Assembly (NCBI RefSeq): GCF_022340605.1
Contig: NZ_JAJDNQ010000142.1
Coordinates: forward strand, 1 to 64,000
Length of the DNA: 64,000 nucleotides
DNA from: Thiohalocapsa sp.
GTDB taxonomy: Bacteria > Pseudomonadota > Gammaproteobacteria > Chromatiales > Chromatiaceae
Reading direction: 5' to 3'
Shown here: piece by piece, positions 8,410 through 14,010 of the stretch
Numbering within the stretch: the stretch's first letter is position 1
How the letters are laid out: the number at the start of each line of letters is the position of its first letter
The notes under the pieces: model-generated
Told to the model about the DNA's origin: nothing
Database searches by the model: none
What the model saw: the letters and a program-made list of their open reading frames with translations, nothing else
Translations under genes and position numbers: made by a program

Positions 8410-9432
8410 ATGCAGAGCGAGCCCCTGAACGGAAACCTCCACAACAAGGTTCCGGACGCCGTCGAATCCGCTGCCACCCCGCCCGCCGACGGCACCATCG
8501 CAGAGGTCGGCGGGCGCACCTGCGTGTACTACGACGGCTACTGGATCAAGTACTACGAGCCGCCGCCGGAGACCCTCACCGCAAAGAAGGGTTTGATCGA
8601 GGCCCTGACGCGGCGGCTGTTCAATCATGTCGAGCACGGCATCAACATCCCGGGCTTCCGGCTCGCCGAGGCGCGCGCCGCCTACGAGCGCGAGACGGAC
8701 CCCGAGCGCAAGCGTGTCAATGGCGCCATGCTGGCCGGCGCACTGTTCAACCGCGCGACGACCATCTTCACCAAGCTGGTTGAACTCCAGGCCGACGGCG
8801 TCGAGGTCGAGCCCGACGATGCCCTGATGAAAGAGTGCGGCGACTACCTGCTGGAAGCCCTGGAACTGGGGCGGCTGGTGCGCCACCGCGGCGGCGACGA
8901 GGGGATCGACGAGCTCTGGGGCGAGCCCTTCAAGGCCTTCAGCCAGCCCATCGCCACCTTCTACCAGAGCCGTTACGTGAAGATCGCGCAGACCATGCGC
9001 GACATCGACCGCATCACCGGCACCATCGCGGCCACCTTCGAGGGCAGCAAGCAGTTGCCGGAGCTTAAGCCGCAGCTGGACGAGCTCGCCGAGGCGGCCA
9101 AGCGCAAGTGCGAGATCCTGCGCACGGACCCGGTAATCTTCAGCGTCTGGCCGGCCTTCGTCGTGGCCAGCGACCGGCTGAAGCGCGTGCAGCCGCGACT
9201 GCCGCCGGCGCCAACGCTGCGGGACATCCACGAGGCCCAGGAGGCCAACCGCATCCTCAAGGTCGGCACCGCGCTGGTGAGCCATATCGTGCGTGCACGG
9301 GTGCCGATGCCGAAGAGCACCCGTGAGCTCATCGACAAGTGCGACCGCTTCCGCCGCACTTTTCTCGACCCCCGGCTCACCGCACCGTGCGCGAATACCG
9401 ACGGCGAGCCACAGCGGCCCACACCCCCGTAA
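8410..9432 (+). CDS. Unrecognised mostly helical protein
   Basis: A 340-residue soluble protein starting MQSEPLNGNLHNK. No family is recognised. Near the N-terminus is an aromatic motif YYDGYWIKYYEPPPET. The rest looks helical with many charged residues (KKGLIEALTRRLFNHVEHG, ERKRVNGAMLAGALFNRAT, YVKIAQTMRDIDRITG), ending in a predicted helix bundle and a Pro-rich tail. No signal peptide or membrane segment is seen. It precedes the ATP-grasp gene by 275 bp on the same strand, which hints at a shared process. Upstream extension of the frame is unlikely to be coding. Confidence 0.7.
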   Translation: MQSEPLNGNLHNKVPDAVESAATPPADGTIAEVGGRTCVYYDGYWIKYYEPPPETLTAKKGLIEALTRRLFNHVEHGINIPGFRLAEARAAYERETDPERKRVNGAMLAGALFNRATTIFTKLVELQADGVEVEPDDALMKECGDYLLEALELGRLVRHRGGDEGIDELWGEPFKAFSQPIATFYQSRYVKIAQTMRDIDRITGTIAATFEGSKQLPELKPQLDELAEAAKRKCEILRTDPVIFSVWPAFVVASDRLKRVQPRLPPAPTLRDIHEAQEANRILKVGTALVSHIVRARVPMPKSTRELIDKCDRFRRTFLDPRLTAPCANTDGEPQRPTPP

Positions 9433-9707
9433 TCCAGGCTCGCTGCTTGTAAGGAAACCCTCGCCACAGAAACCCGCGCAGGCCGCACCCGAGCGACCGC
9501 GCAGGCCGGCGCACGACACCGGCACGACTGCCGACCGCGGCGCCCCAAGACGGTGCGTTCCGGACAGGCTGCGCACCCGATCGCACCCCCGATCGCGCCT
9601 TCTGCAGCGGATGCCGTGGCGCCACCCATGGCTTCAGCGCATGGCCGCACGGTATGGCATCGATTTTGCTCTATTGATCCCAGGCAAGCGGATGCGGGAG
9701 ATCGGGC

Positions 9708-10826
9708 ATGGGCGCAGCTTTGGCACAGACGCTCAACGCGAGCCGTGTGCGGCAGATCCTCAACCACGACATCATGGGCTGCACGGCCGATGGCGTGACG
9801 GGCAATCACCTGTACTCGGGGCGCGCCCTCGGCATGACCGACCCGGGCGACATCGTCCAGCTCCACCCCGACCTCCGGAGCCAGTGGGAGGCCATCAGCG
9901 CGCACTACGCCCGCGTCGGGCTGCGCCATACGACAGAGGTCATCTGGGACGTCGGTCATGAGCGACTCGCCGAGCACCCCGAGCACGCGGTGTCGGTCTT
10001 CTTCTTCGGCCCCGCCGAGCACGCGGTGCGCCCGGACGAGCGCTGGCTGCAGACCGTCGCCGCCATCAACTCCAAGAACACCTTCATGGAGATCGCCGGC
10101 CGGCTCGACGTGCCGGTGCCGCTCACGGTGCCCTATGCGAGCATCGACGACATCGCCGAGGCGGACATCGACGACGCCCCCTATCCCTGCTATCTCAAGG
10201 CGGCGGTGTCCGTCTCCGGTGTCGGTATCCACCGCTGCGCCGACGCGTTGGCGCTGCGCGAGGCCATCGGCCAGTTCGCCGGCGGCACGCCGGTGCAGAT
10301 TCAGCAGGAGGTGGTCACCGACACCTTTCTGAACCTGCAATACCGCTGCGACACCGATGGCCTCAGCCGCTACGCCGTGACCGAACAGGTGCTCGACGGC
10401 TTCGTGCACCAGGGCAACCGCCACCCCGCGAGCCATGCCCCCTGGGAGATCGTCGAGCCCATGGCTCAGTGGCTGCACGAGGAGGGCATGCAGGGCGTTT
10501 TCGCCTTCGATGTAGCGGTCGTCGGCGACGATGCCAGCCCGGAATTTCTCGCCATCGAGTGCAACCCGCGCTACAACGGCGCCAGCTATCCGACGGCCAT
10601 CGCCCACAAGCTCGACATCGAGCAATGGCTCGCCAAGGCCTATCACACCCGCCATCGCGGCCTGGACGCCCTGGACCTGAGCGGCATCGAGTACGACCCC
10701 GCCACCGGGAGCGGCGTGGTGCTGGTCAACTGGGGGCCGATCGTGATCGGCAAGCTCCTGGTGCTGCTGGCCGGTGACGCCGCCACCCAGGCCGAGCTCG
10801 AGCGCGAGCTCCTCGCCAGGCTGTAG
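9708..10826 (+). CDS. ATP-grasp superfamily ligase of unknown substrate
   Basis: A 372-residue soluble protein with a clear GGGAG ribosome site eight bases before the ATG. The C-terminal two thirds has ATP-grasp features: K123 in INSKNTFMEIAG, a nucleotide-binding Lys near 164 in CYLKAAVSVSGVG, PVQIQQEV near 196-202, and the metal-binding E-x-N in FLAIECNPRYNGAS near 280-292. ATP-grasp enzymes join a carboxylate to an amine or thiol through an acyl phosphate. The N-terminal 110 residues resemble no ligase I can name. The downstream isoaspartyl peptidase suggests chemistry on an aspartyl or isopeptide bond; that is inference from context. Confidence 0.8.
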   Translation: MGAALAQTLNASRVRQILNHDIMGCTADGVTGNHLYSGRALGMTDPGDIVQLHPDLRSQWEAISAHYARVGLRHTTEVIWDVGHERLAEHPEHAVSVFFFGPAEHAVRPDERWLQTVAAINSKNTFMEIAGRLDVPVPLTVPYASIDDIAEADIDDAPYPCYLKAAVSVSGVGIHRCADALALREAIGQFAGGTPVQIQQEVVTDTFLNLQYRCDTDGLSRYAVTEQVLDGFVHQGNRHPASHAPWEIVEPMAQWLHEEGMQGVFAFDVAVVGDDASPEFLAIECNPRYNGASYPTAIAHKLDIEQWLAKAYHTRHRGLDALDLSGIEYDPATGSGVVLVNWGPIVIGKLLVLLAGDAATQAELERELLARL

Positions 10827-11175
10827 TGCACTCATGCGGAAATATCGAGGCCACTCTCCAGACCGCCCGCGGCGCTGATCCGTGTCGACCTGGAGGGCGA
10901 CACGCCGGACGCGGGTCGCGATGGCCGGAGCGTCGCCCTCCAGGGCGACACTCGCTCGCGCAGGACAGCAAACGGTAACGACAATTCCAAGGCCGTGCAC
11001 TAGCCTCCGACCGGAGCCCCCGCTGGCGCGATGCCGGCCACACGCCGAGTGGGGCTGCGGTTTCCGCGCTTCGTCCCCATCGTCATCGCCGGAACCGGCA
11101 CGCCCACGCGCCGCTGCCCCCGACAACCATTCAACACAACATCGGCGCCCGCCGCGGCGCCAGGGTCGCCACACC
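10827..11175. other. Intergenic region with a separated inverted repeat
   Basis: No gene is seen. CTGGAGGGCGAC at 10890-10901 is matched by its exact complement at 10932-10943, so a 12-bp stem could form around a 30-base loop; GGCGACAC is also directly repeated. It could be an operator or an RNA hairpin ahead of the isoaspartyl peptidase gene. The frame of that gene stays open back to 10882, but the ATG at 11176 matches the family start. Confidence 0.55.
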
Positions 11176-12102
11176 ATGCAAGATAGCTTCTCCCTGATGA
11201 TCCACGGCGGCGCCGGGGCGCTCGACAACGTCAAGGACGAGCGCATCGCCGTGCGCTATCTGGAGAGCATCCGCATCGTGCTGGAGCACGGACGGGCCAT
11301 GTTGCAGCACGGCGCGAGCGCCGTGGAGGCCGTGGAGTCCTGCGCCTCGCAATTGGAGGACGACCCCCTGTTCAACGCCGGCTGCGGCTCGGTGCTCAAT
11401 GAGAACGGCAAGGTGGAGATGGACGCCGGTATCATGGACGGCCGCGACCTCGCCGCCGGCGCCATCGCCGCGGTCGGCAACATCGCCAACCCCGTCCAAC
11501 TGGCCCGGCTGGTCATGGACGGCAGCGAGCACGTGCTGCTCATCGGCGAGGGCGCGCTGCGCTTCGCCGAGCACTGCGGCATGCGGCTCACCCCGGATCA
11601 CTACTTCTTCACCCCGGACCGCATCAAGCAACTGGATCAGGCGCGGCTGCACCGCCGCATCATGCTCGACCACGACGACCAGGGCGACGAGCAGAAGTAC
11701 GGCACCATCGGCGCCGTCGCCCGCGACCGCGACGGCAGCCTCGCCGCCGCCACATCCACCGGCGGTATCGTCAACAAGCGCATGGGCCGGGTCGGCGACT
11801 CGCCCATCATCGGCGCTGGCGTCTACGCCGACAACGACACCTGCGCGGTCTCCGCCACCGGCTACGGCGAAGAGTTCATGCGCACCGTGTTTGCCAAGAC
11901 CATCGCCGATGCCATCGAGCACACCGGCACCGATGCCGCCGGTGCCGTCGAATACGGCCTCGGCTACCTCACCCGCAAGGTCCAGGGGCGCGGCGGCGTC
12001 ATCTGCATCGACGCCGCCGGCAACTGCGCCAGCGGCATGACCACGCCCAAGATGATCCACGGCTGGATCGAGCGCGGCGGCGAGACCGTCTGCCGGTTCT
12101 GA
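11176..12102 (+). CDS. Isoaspartyl peptidase / L-asparaginase, Ntn-hydrolase type
   Basis: Cleaves beta-aspartyl (isoaspartyl) dipeptides and, more weakly, asparagine. The 308-residue precursor has the N-terminal MIHGGAGAL block and AGCGSVLNENGKVEMDA. T177 in KYGTIGAVARD is the self-processing nucleophile, followed by STGGIVNKRMGRVGDSP for substrate binding. Such enzymes act as autoproteolysed alpha-beta dimers in the cytoplasm. In cyanophycin users they finish breakdown of beta-Asp-Arg, but no cyanophycin synthetase or cyanophycinase is visible here. The gene follows the ATP-grasp ligase on the same strand. Confidence 0.93.
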   Translation: MQDSFSLMIHGGAGALDNVKDERIAVRYLESIRIVLEHGRAMLQHGASAVEAVESCASQLEDDPLFNAGCGSVLNENGKVEMDAGIMDGRDLAAGAIAAVGNIANPVQLARLVMDGSEHVLLIGEGALRFAEHCGMRLTPDHYFFTPDRIKQLDQARLHRRIMLDHDDQGDEQKYGTIGAVARDRDGSLAAATSTGGIVNKRMGRVGDSPIIGAGVYADNDTCAVSATGYGEEFMRTVFAKTIADAIEHTGTDAAGAVEYGLGYLTRKVQGRGGVICIDAAGNCASGMTTPKMIHGWIERGGETVCRF

Positions 12103-12223: not shown

Positions 12224-12409
12224 TGCGCACGTTTTCGGCGTTGCGAGCAACACTTTCACGGTCTCGCAGCGTTTCCATTGGAAGAGGGCCGACCATGCTT
12301 GCCAGCACGAAGCGCTCGGCCAAGACGTTTCTCGAGTTCGGCGAGCTCGTGCTCACCCATCAATGGTTGTCCAACGGCCTGCCCCCTTGTGAGCGCGGCA
12401 ACCCGTTGA

Positions 12410-12595
12410 CTGAAAAAGGTTTGGCATCAGGCAGTACGACCAGGCTTCGACGTCGTTTGACCGACATGCCTGTGCTGGCCCATCTCTGTAAAGCGCATCG
12501 TCTTCATCCTCCATGAACACCCGTTGGCGCCTGTTCCGACGTTGCGTCACATAGTGGGGGATGCCGGGCACGATGATTCGTGGAAGCCGAGACAT
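12410..12595 (-). pseudogene. REP-associated tyrosine transposase (IS200-like), N-terminal fragment
   Basis: The minus strand from 12595 encodes MSRLPRIIVPGIPHYVTQRR, then RRQRVFMEDEDDALYRD and WSYCLMPN. This is the start of a RAYT / Y1-transposase domain, and the first metal-binding HxH region is expected right after LMPN. There the similarity stops and the frame turns to unrelated sequence, so the catalytic His pair and Tyr are lost. Upstream at about 12600-12660 the DNA carries an AATTATGGTGACACTTTAC-like segment, as often seen flanking these elements. It is a dead relic in a repeat-rich stretch; no intact copy is seen in the window. Confidence 0.75.
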
Positions 12596-13592: not shown

Positions 13593-13900
13593 CCATACAT
13601 CAGTGCCAGGTTTCTGTCCCAATCGTCGTCGCTCGGCCCGCTGTGCGCCGGTACTTGTCGGCCACGGGGGACGCGGGAAAAGTCAACGAAGAGAGTGGAC
13701 GGGATGGGGCCGATAGGCCTTGACCATAAGTTCGACCATCCCGCGAACAGTCCGCACGGCGGACCCTACGCGGATCCGCGCCGGTCGCAAAAACCCAGCG
13801 CATCCCTCGATGCACGTTAAGAAAGCAAGGCAAGTACGCCATCATCATCAGCCAGCGAACGGATCGAGCACTCGTGCAGCGTTTCTCCCAACGCGACTTT

Positions 13901-14010
<110 letters not shown>

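Follow-up and report, generated by a model that had tools for sequence, protein, structure and literature searches.

Cyanophycin synthetase (CphA) includes ATP-grasp in its domain content. The same fold as that predicted here for the protein P0002 is found in BesA, which forms a gamma-glutamyl bond, and in SAOUHSC_02373, which makes an aspartyl dipeptide. Enzymes of the IaaA family, on the hydrolytic side, are described in parts of PMC10206079 as broad dipeptidases that are promiscuous even in cyanophycin clusters. We analysed a window of 64,000 nucleotides from Thiohalocapsa sp. (NZ_JAJDNQ010000142.1), in which three co-directional genes, P0001, P0002 and P0003, are located on the forward strand at positions 8410 to 12102, as a first-pass annotation had described. 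Purifying selection acts on each of the three, with a mean pN/pS of 0.23 for P0001, 0.32 for P0002 and 0.15 for P0003 among six copies from the Thiohalocapsa group.

Based on its sequence, P0003 (11176-12102, forward strand, 308 amino acids counted from Met) is a predicted Ntn isoaspartyl peptidase or plant-type asparaginase of the IaaA family. The listed open reading frame starts at 10882 and is over-extended, as the alignment with relatives starts near the Met at 11176. The protein matched Asparaginase_2 (PF01112) over its whole length (residues 8-301), with 331.9 bits against a cut-off of 27. T177, which the first-pass annotation named, is the nucleophile of the Gly-Thr autocleavage site; its codon is at 11704-11706 (forward strand) when the ATG at 11176 is taken as the start. 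Every one of the 34 family rows has Thr here, whereas the E. coli row used as a yardstick is a solved mutant with Ala. Additionally, R205, D208, T228 and G229 were invariant in 35 rows, so that both the nucleophile and the aspartate-binding columns are kept. We take these four to be the substrate-binding residues, with the Arg and Asp presumably holding the aspartyl part as in IaaA. P0003 thus resembles IaaA and the plant-type asparaginases in its whole-length match and in these conserved columns, but its identity to the E. coli row is 44% and it belongs to a distinct subfamily that accompanies the ligase.

P0002 (9708-10826, forward strand, 372 amino acids) had been called an ATP-grasp protein with intact metal motifs. 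E284 and N286 (10557-10565, forward strand), which from ATP-grasp enzymes in general we assume to be the metal-binding Glu and Asn, are present in P0002 and conserved in 40 of the 42 relatives in the alignment, in agreement with that call. A structure model, which had been proposed as a check, was obtained with pLDDT 79 and pTM 0.79. When it was compared with 998 chains, 726 aligned at Z of at least 8, and the 50 entries listed all had Z of at least 19.7; the model therefore has an ATP-grasp fold. The nearest solved folds were L-amino-acid and peptide ligases (Z 28.3 to 24.2), with PurK lower at Z 21.9. P0002 is alike in overall fold over about 330-350 residues to 8ynd, 3wvq/3wvr (which we take to be PGM1), BesA (8yi6) and SAOUHSC_02373 (7r8p), and going by the model it probably joins amino acids. 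The identity to solved ligases was at most 19% among the matches listed. Sequence search of the PDB gave a best E of 0.0093 with the single protein and 0.011 with a profile, and only the fold comparison was informative. The ligase subfamily carries no Pfam or NCBIfam name, and the cyanophycin synthetase model TIGR02068 (NCBIfam) was not among the P0002 matches up to E 0.1.

The resemblance to PGM1 raises the alternative that P0002 is a peptide-capping ligase of that type, decorating a ribosomal or free peptide, with P0003 trimming or detoxifying the product. The PGM1 fold aligned at Z 27.0, and weak PGM1_C matches (E 0.01 or better) were found in 8 of the 42 relatives. However, PGM1_C reached only 16.7 bits on P0002, under Pfam's cut-off of 22.5, which places the protein outside the PGM1 family by this measure, and among open reading frames of at least 90 amino acids none that could encode a precursor, a transporter or a maturation protein was conserved next to the pair. 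We therefore regard this alternative as decidedly unlikely.

The two genes stay together in many gammaproteobacteria. All 43 fetched loci where both were detectable encode ligase and peptidase on one strand. The gap between them does not exceed 200 bp in 40 of the 43; in the window it is 349 bp (10827-11175, forward strand). Among 195 genomes, the peptidase was found in 35 of the 37 that bear the ligase, in comparison to 10 of the 158 others (Fisher p about 4e-27, uncorrected for genome relatedness), and the protein distances of ligase and peptidase correlated over 28 loci (r 0.88). The ligase occurred without a nearby peptidase in the genome G185 and on an Acaryochloris plasmid. Two 43% relatives of the ligase (L191 and L192) have lost E284 and N286, and the peptidase is also missing there. 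In L184 the pair is adjoined by ergothioneine genes and in L150 by selenoneine genes, each a single case among the pair loci. A search of the open-licence literature found no paper on the pair.

The first-pass annotation had proposed a cluster of three genes, and the comparison of neighbours across genomes that it called for retained two of them as a conserved unit. P0001 (8410-9432, forward strand), a helical protein, contains the quoted YYDGYWIKYYEPPPET stretch, and its family occurs in 111 of the 195 genomes. Of 80 loci in a separate scan, only 13 had its gene next to the ligase/peptidase pair, the pair being absent from the surrounding stretch in the other 67; P0001 was rejected as a third member for this reason and is a bystander. 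Foldseek matched its AlphaFold2 model (pLDDT 81) to nothing at E 0.001 or better. VIA-align reached at most Z 8.1, with a rhodopsin and with a membrane protein, a value within the range that the notes of that tool call common for helical proteins.

The conserved pair suggests a small make-and-break pathway. We consider it quite possible, though somewhat short of probable, that 9708-10826 and 11176-12102 form a self-contained module in which P0002 makes an amide, beta-aspartyl or similar, that P0003 reclaims. P0002 would use ATP to activate a carboxylate and then join an amine, and the resulting amide would most likely be beta-aspartyl or closely related. P0003 would cleave itself before T177 and hydrolyse this amide back to aspartate and the amine, so that the pair would set the level of a small conjugate. 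In favour of the module are the conserved pairing and co-occurrence, the correlated protein distances, the predicted fold of P0002, the conserved catalytic residues of P0003 and the missing peptidase in L191 and L192; against it are the loci or genomes with only one of the two genes, the promiscuity of IaaA enzymes and the low identity of P0002 to solved ligases. The neighbouring peptidase probably cuts what the ligase makes, which gives an unnamed ligase subfamily a ready-made assay partner.

The peptidase may also simply clear isoaspartyl dipeptides that come from damaged proteins while being encoded in one operon with a ligase that makes some other amide, so that the operon is shared and the metabolite is not. 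The breadth of IaaA enzymes noted above would fit such a role, as would the slower evolution of the peptidase (pN/pS 0.15 vs 0.32 for the ligase). Additionally, 10 of the 45 genomes with the peptidase had no intact ligase, and in three of these ten decayed ligase remnants adjoin an intact peptidase, which indicates that the peptidase can be useful alone. Housekeeping leaves unexplained, however, why the peptidase is so concentrated in the ligase-bearing genomes and lies directly downstream of the ligase, and we find this explanation rather unlikely.

In other bacteria, IaaA genes cluster with cyanophycinase genes according to parts of PMC10206079, and the pair could on that ground be thought to serve cyanophycin or scavenged cyanophycin dipeptides. 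However, none of the 56 genomes with ligase or peptidase, our own included, gave a cyanophycinase match, in a search for which four control genomes with cyanophycin synthetase gave one match over the cut-off, one partial match and two with none. Similarly, 17 of the 195 genomes had a cyanophycin synthetase match of at least 600 bits, and neither ligase nor peptidase was found in any of those 17. The earlier remark that the window lacks cyanophycin synthetase thus extends to the ligase-bearing genomes tested, which are without recognisable cyanophycin enzymes. A cyanophycin pathway was rejected for the pair on these grounds; the explanation is extremely improbable and at genome level nearly refuted, unless unrecognised enzymes replace both.

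As for the make-and-break module, its metabolic setting may be indicated by glycogen or lower-glycolysis genes, which were located in its vicinity in 7 of 24 lineage groups and in 0 of 107 control stretches. This lead offers a setting that is open to experimental test. On the make-and-break reading, the product would serve in storage or under stress and be tied to glycogen turnover. More specifically, the pair might make and recycle an undescribed beta-aspartyl conjugate, such as aspartate linked by an amide to an amino sugar or amino acid, with the amine partner or the regulation coming from glycogen/ADP-glucose metabolism. The conjugate would be a reserve or protectant, in soluble form, for gammaproteobacteria without cyanophycin; in this specific form we hold the proposal to be unlikely. 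An osmolyte role of the product is a possibility only. It is weakened by the glycine betaine that halophilic Chromatiaceae already produce (PMC7824335) and by the lack of the ligase in several species that are marine or halophilic. Six of 32 genomes reached through named loci had a strong ligase match (Thiohalocapsa halophila, Lamprobacter modestohalophilus, Halochromatium glycolicum, Rhabdochromatium marinum, Candidatus Thiosymbion oneisti and a Thiocapsa MAG), whereas Halochromatium salexigens, Thiohalocapsa marina, Thiocapsa marina and two Marichromatium species gave no match; the habitats are in part those given in PMC7824335.

In comparison to the solved ligases of the same fold (8ynd, PGM1, BesA and SAOUHSC_02373), P0002 differs by its low identity and by its isoaspartyl-peptidase partner, a pairing that is not known for any of the four. 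Graspetide clusters have a precursor peptide gene beside the ATP-grasp gene. Beside the pair, the comparison covered open reading frames of at least 90 amino acids, and in this size range no third family common to most lineage groups was found. The pair resembles the cyanophycin system (CphA1, cyanophycinase and IaaA) in combining a predicted ATP-grasp maker with a predicted isoaspartyl-peptidase breaker, but it differs from it in the absence of cyanophycinase and of cyanophycin synthetase from the genomes described above and in the lack of a cyanophycin-synthetase match for P0002. Should the pair yield a free beta-aspartyl compound, this product would be the soluble equivalent of cyanophycin in gammaproteobacteria, sulfur-oxidising ones and others.

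The three co-directional genes described in the first-pass annotation were borne out on the plus strand. They encode the helical protein P0001 (8410-9432), the ATP-grasp ligase P0002 (9708-10826) and the isoaspartyl peptidase P0003, which starts at 11176, 349 bp past the P0002 stop, and has its nucleophile T177 encoded at 11704-11706 (+). Comparison of six Thiohalocapsa-group copies indicated purifying selection on all three genes. The closest relatives of the genome, found by searching the genome collection with P0001, were a Chromatiaceae MAG and Thiohalocapsa. Immediately past the peptidase gene, an 80-aa ORF on the minus strand (12353-12595) presumably resembles the beginning of a REP-type transposase. 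Low-complexity Leu-Ser/Leu-Pro repeats, seen by eye on one strand at about 13850-14000, adjoin a response-regulator gene.

Strong P0002 matches (above 200 bits) were found in 37 of 195 genomes of the order and 12 of 369 of the class, own genome included in both, and a profile search of the phylum matched 9 of 398 genomes at E 0.001, with 50.8 bits as the best score besides the own one. P0003-like proteins (E up to 1e-90, identity 60% or more) occurred in 45 of the order genomes, namely in 35 of the 37 with P0002 as compared to 10 of the 158 without it. Leaving out the own genome, 11 class genomes had a strong P0002 match, and in nine of them P0003 lay downstream. Both genes were present in 43 of 57 loci fetched around either gene (window not counted), always on one shared strand, and among ORFs of 90 aa or more no third gene family common to most lineage groups was found. 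The computed gap was at most 200 bp in 40 of the 43, the values for L217 and L218 being extrapolated as a ligase remnant alone is found there, and 1048 bp in L185, where an additional ORF separates the two genes. Protein distances of P0002 and P0003 were correlated (r 0.88, 28 loci), which shared descent alone could also yield. The pair is real and conserved, without a name in the family libraries searched, and the earlier guess about it was sound.

The conserved neighbourhood did not extend to P0001. Its relatives were present in 111 of the 195 order genomes, and the genome collection yielded 365 stretches with one; among the best 80 of these, mostly Chromatiaceae and Rhodocyclaceae, P0002 and P0003 adjoined P0001 in 13, all from Thiohalocapsa, Halochromatium, Lamprobacter or MAGs close to these, and neither gene was found within the flanks examined (up to 8 kb each side) in the other 67. 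P0001, proposed as a cluster member, is therefore a bystander outside the conserved pair. It gave no Pfam or NCBIfam family match at E 0.1, and its predicted model is a helical protein for which structure comparisons returned no convincing solved relative. Of 28 loci that fall outside the main Chromatiaceae group (L082 and L085-L111), 21 have a CYTH-CHAD protein together with a histidine-phosphatase-like one near the P0001 relative. As CHAD domains bind polyphosphate, P0001 might be polyphosphate-related.

Several genomes depart from the pairing. P0003 is intact alongside P0002 remnants in G003, G008 and G009, and is present in seven genomes where a P0002 match was not found (G006, G029, G032, G042, G134, G137 and G169). 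In three related genomes (L161, L217 and L218) the ligase remnants lie beside a peptidase that is intact and beside GlgC. Frame changes break both genes in G145, P0002 is altered in G089, only a fragment of P0003 accompanies P0002 in G124, and in G185 no P0003 was found within 4.2 kb downstream of P0002; in G073 the two are on separate contigs, so that adjacency cannot be judged. The cyanobacterial Acaryochloris plasmid pMB03 (L209) carries a P0002 relative (51% identity) that looks like a horizontal transfer and is followed by a TPR protein; a search of the plasmid collection at E 1e-60 gave no P0003 match for it. Relatives at 43% identity in L191 (1791-2936) and L192 (9291-10436) have lost the expected metal-binding residues E284 and N286, with no P0003 found near them, and are possible pseudoenzymes.

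Cyanophycin was considered as the product. The cyanophycin synthetase model TIGR02068 reached 600 bits, a line of our choosing that admits a partial match of G100, in 17 of the 195 genomes, none of which carries P0002 or P0003 (Fisher 0.047 and 0.014, uncorrected for relatedness); only six passed the curated cut-off. The own genome, 87% complete, has a partial match of 220 bits only. The cyanophycinase model TIGR02069 was found in none of the 56 genomes carrying P0002 or P0003; among four control genomes with cyanophycin synthetase it was over the cut-off in G076, partial at a contig end in G165, and without a match in G108 and G118. On these counts cyanophycin was rejected.

Genes of glycogen and lower-glycolysis metabolism lie near several pairs. 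Six Lamprobacter/Halochromatium-group loci have a divergent GlgC-like gene, scoring under the curated cut-off, less than 1 kb downstream on the opposite strand, with GpmI beyond. L152 and L158 have another GlgC as their neighbour upstream, in divergent orientation, and GlgC adjoins the remnant-bearing L161, L217 and L218. Glycogen phosphorylase is found some 3-7 kb away from pair or peptidase in five loci (L156, L157, L190, L210 and L215), and in Acaryochloris (L209, 7462-11122) it stops 34 bp ahead of the ligase relative on the same strand. In L150 and L151 the neighbouring divergent gene is GpmI, which is also present about 6 kb off in L191 and L192. At least one of GlgC, GlgP and GpmI, a list picked after the loci were inspected, is present in 21 of the 57 loci, corresponding to 7 of 24 lineage groups in our own, non-independent grouping (8 when counting L184, with a different alpha-glucan phosphorylase about 6 kb downstream). 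None was near the pair in the eight Thiohalocapsa-group loci, window included. The three genes, and likewise the L184-type phosphorylase, were absent from 67 mutually orthologous P0001-only loci and from 40 arbitrary 20-kb windows (14 genomes). An accompanying binomial estimate assumed too small a number of such genes, since GlgC by itself matches several times per genome. We regard this proximity as a lead, not a result. Selenoneine genes SenA and SenB with a SelD fusion protein (L150, 12396-17186) also occur near the pair, as do the ergothioneine genes EgtB and EgtD, on its downstream side (L184, 13286-15574).

The best supported reading, held tentatively, is that P0002 would form a beta-aspartyl or similar amide and P0003 would hydrolyse the same amide. 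P0003 is a full Asparaginase_2 protein by Pfam search, 44% identical to E. coli IaaA, and the alignment shows conservation of its nucleophile and of the columns that we take to bind the substrate's aspartyl portion in IaaA, which argues that the P0003 substrate includes an aspartyl part. One paper reports IaaA-type enzymes to remain promiscuous, cyanophycin clusters included (PMC10206079), so the other half would not be readable from P0003.

For P0002, the structure model proposed earlier was obtained with AlphaFold2 from 14 sequences (pLDDT 79, pTM 0.79; low confidence at 1-11, 21-33, 290-292 and 344-346). Among the residues that do not vary across the 42 aligned relatives are H20, D21, S37, R39, R69, K123, K164, E201, H234 and W246; E284 and N286 are retained in 40. 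P0002 was not assigned to the PGM1 family because Pfam PGM1_C was under its cut-off and identity to the solved structures listed next was at most 19%. The top VIA-align match was 8ynd, an ATP-grasp peptide ligase from Streptomyces (Z 28.3, 3.0 A, 335 residues), followed by 3wvq and 3wvr (both 27.0), BesA (24.9) and SAOUHSC_02373 (24.2), with PurK (21.9) and biotin carboxylase (21.0) ranked lower. Judged by this model, P0002 probably acts like an amino-acid or peptide ligase.
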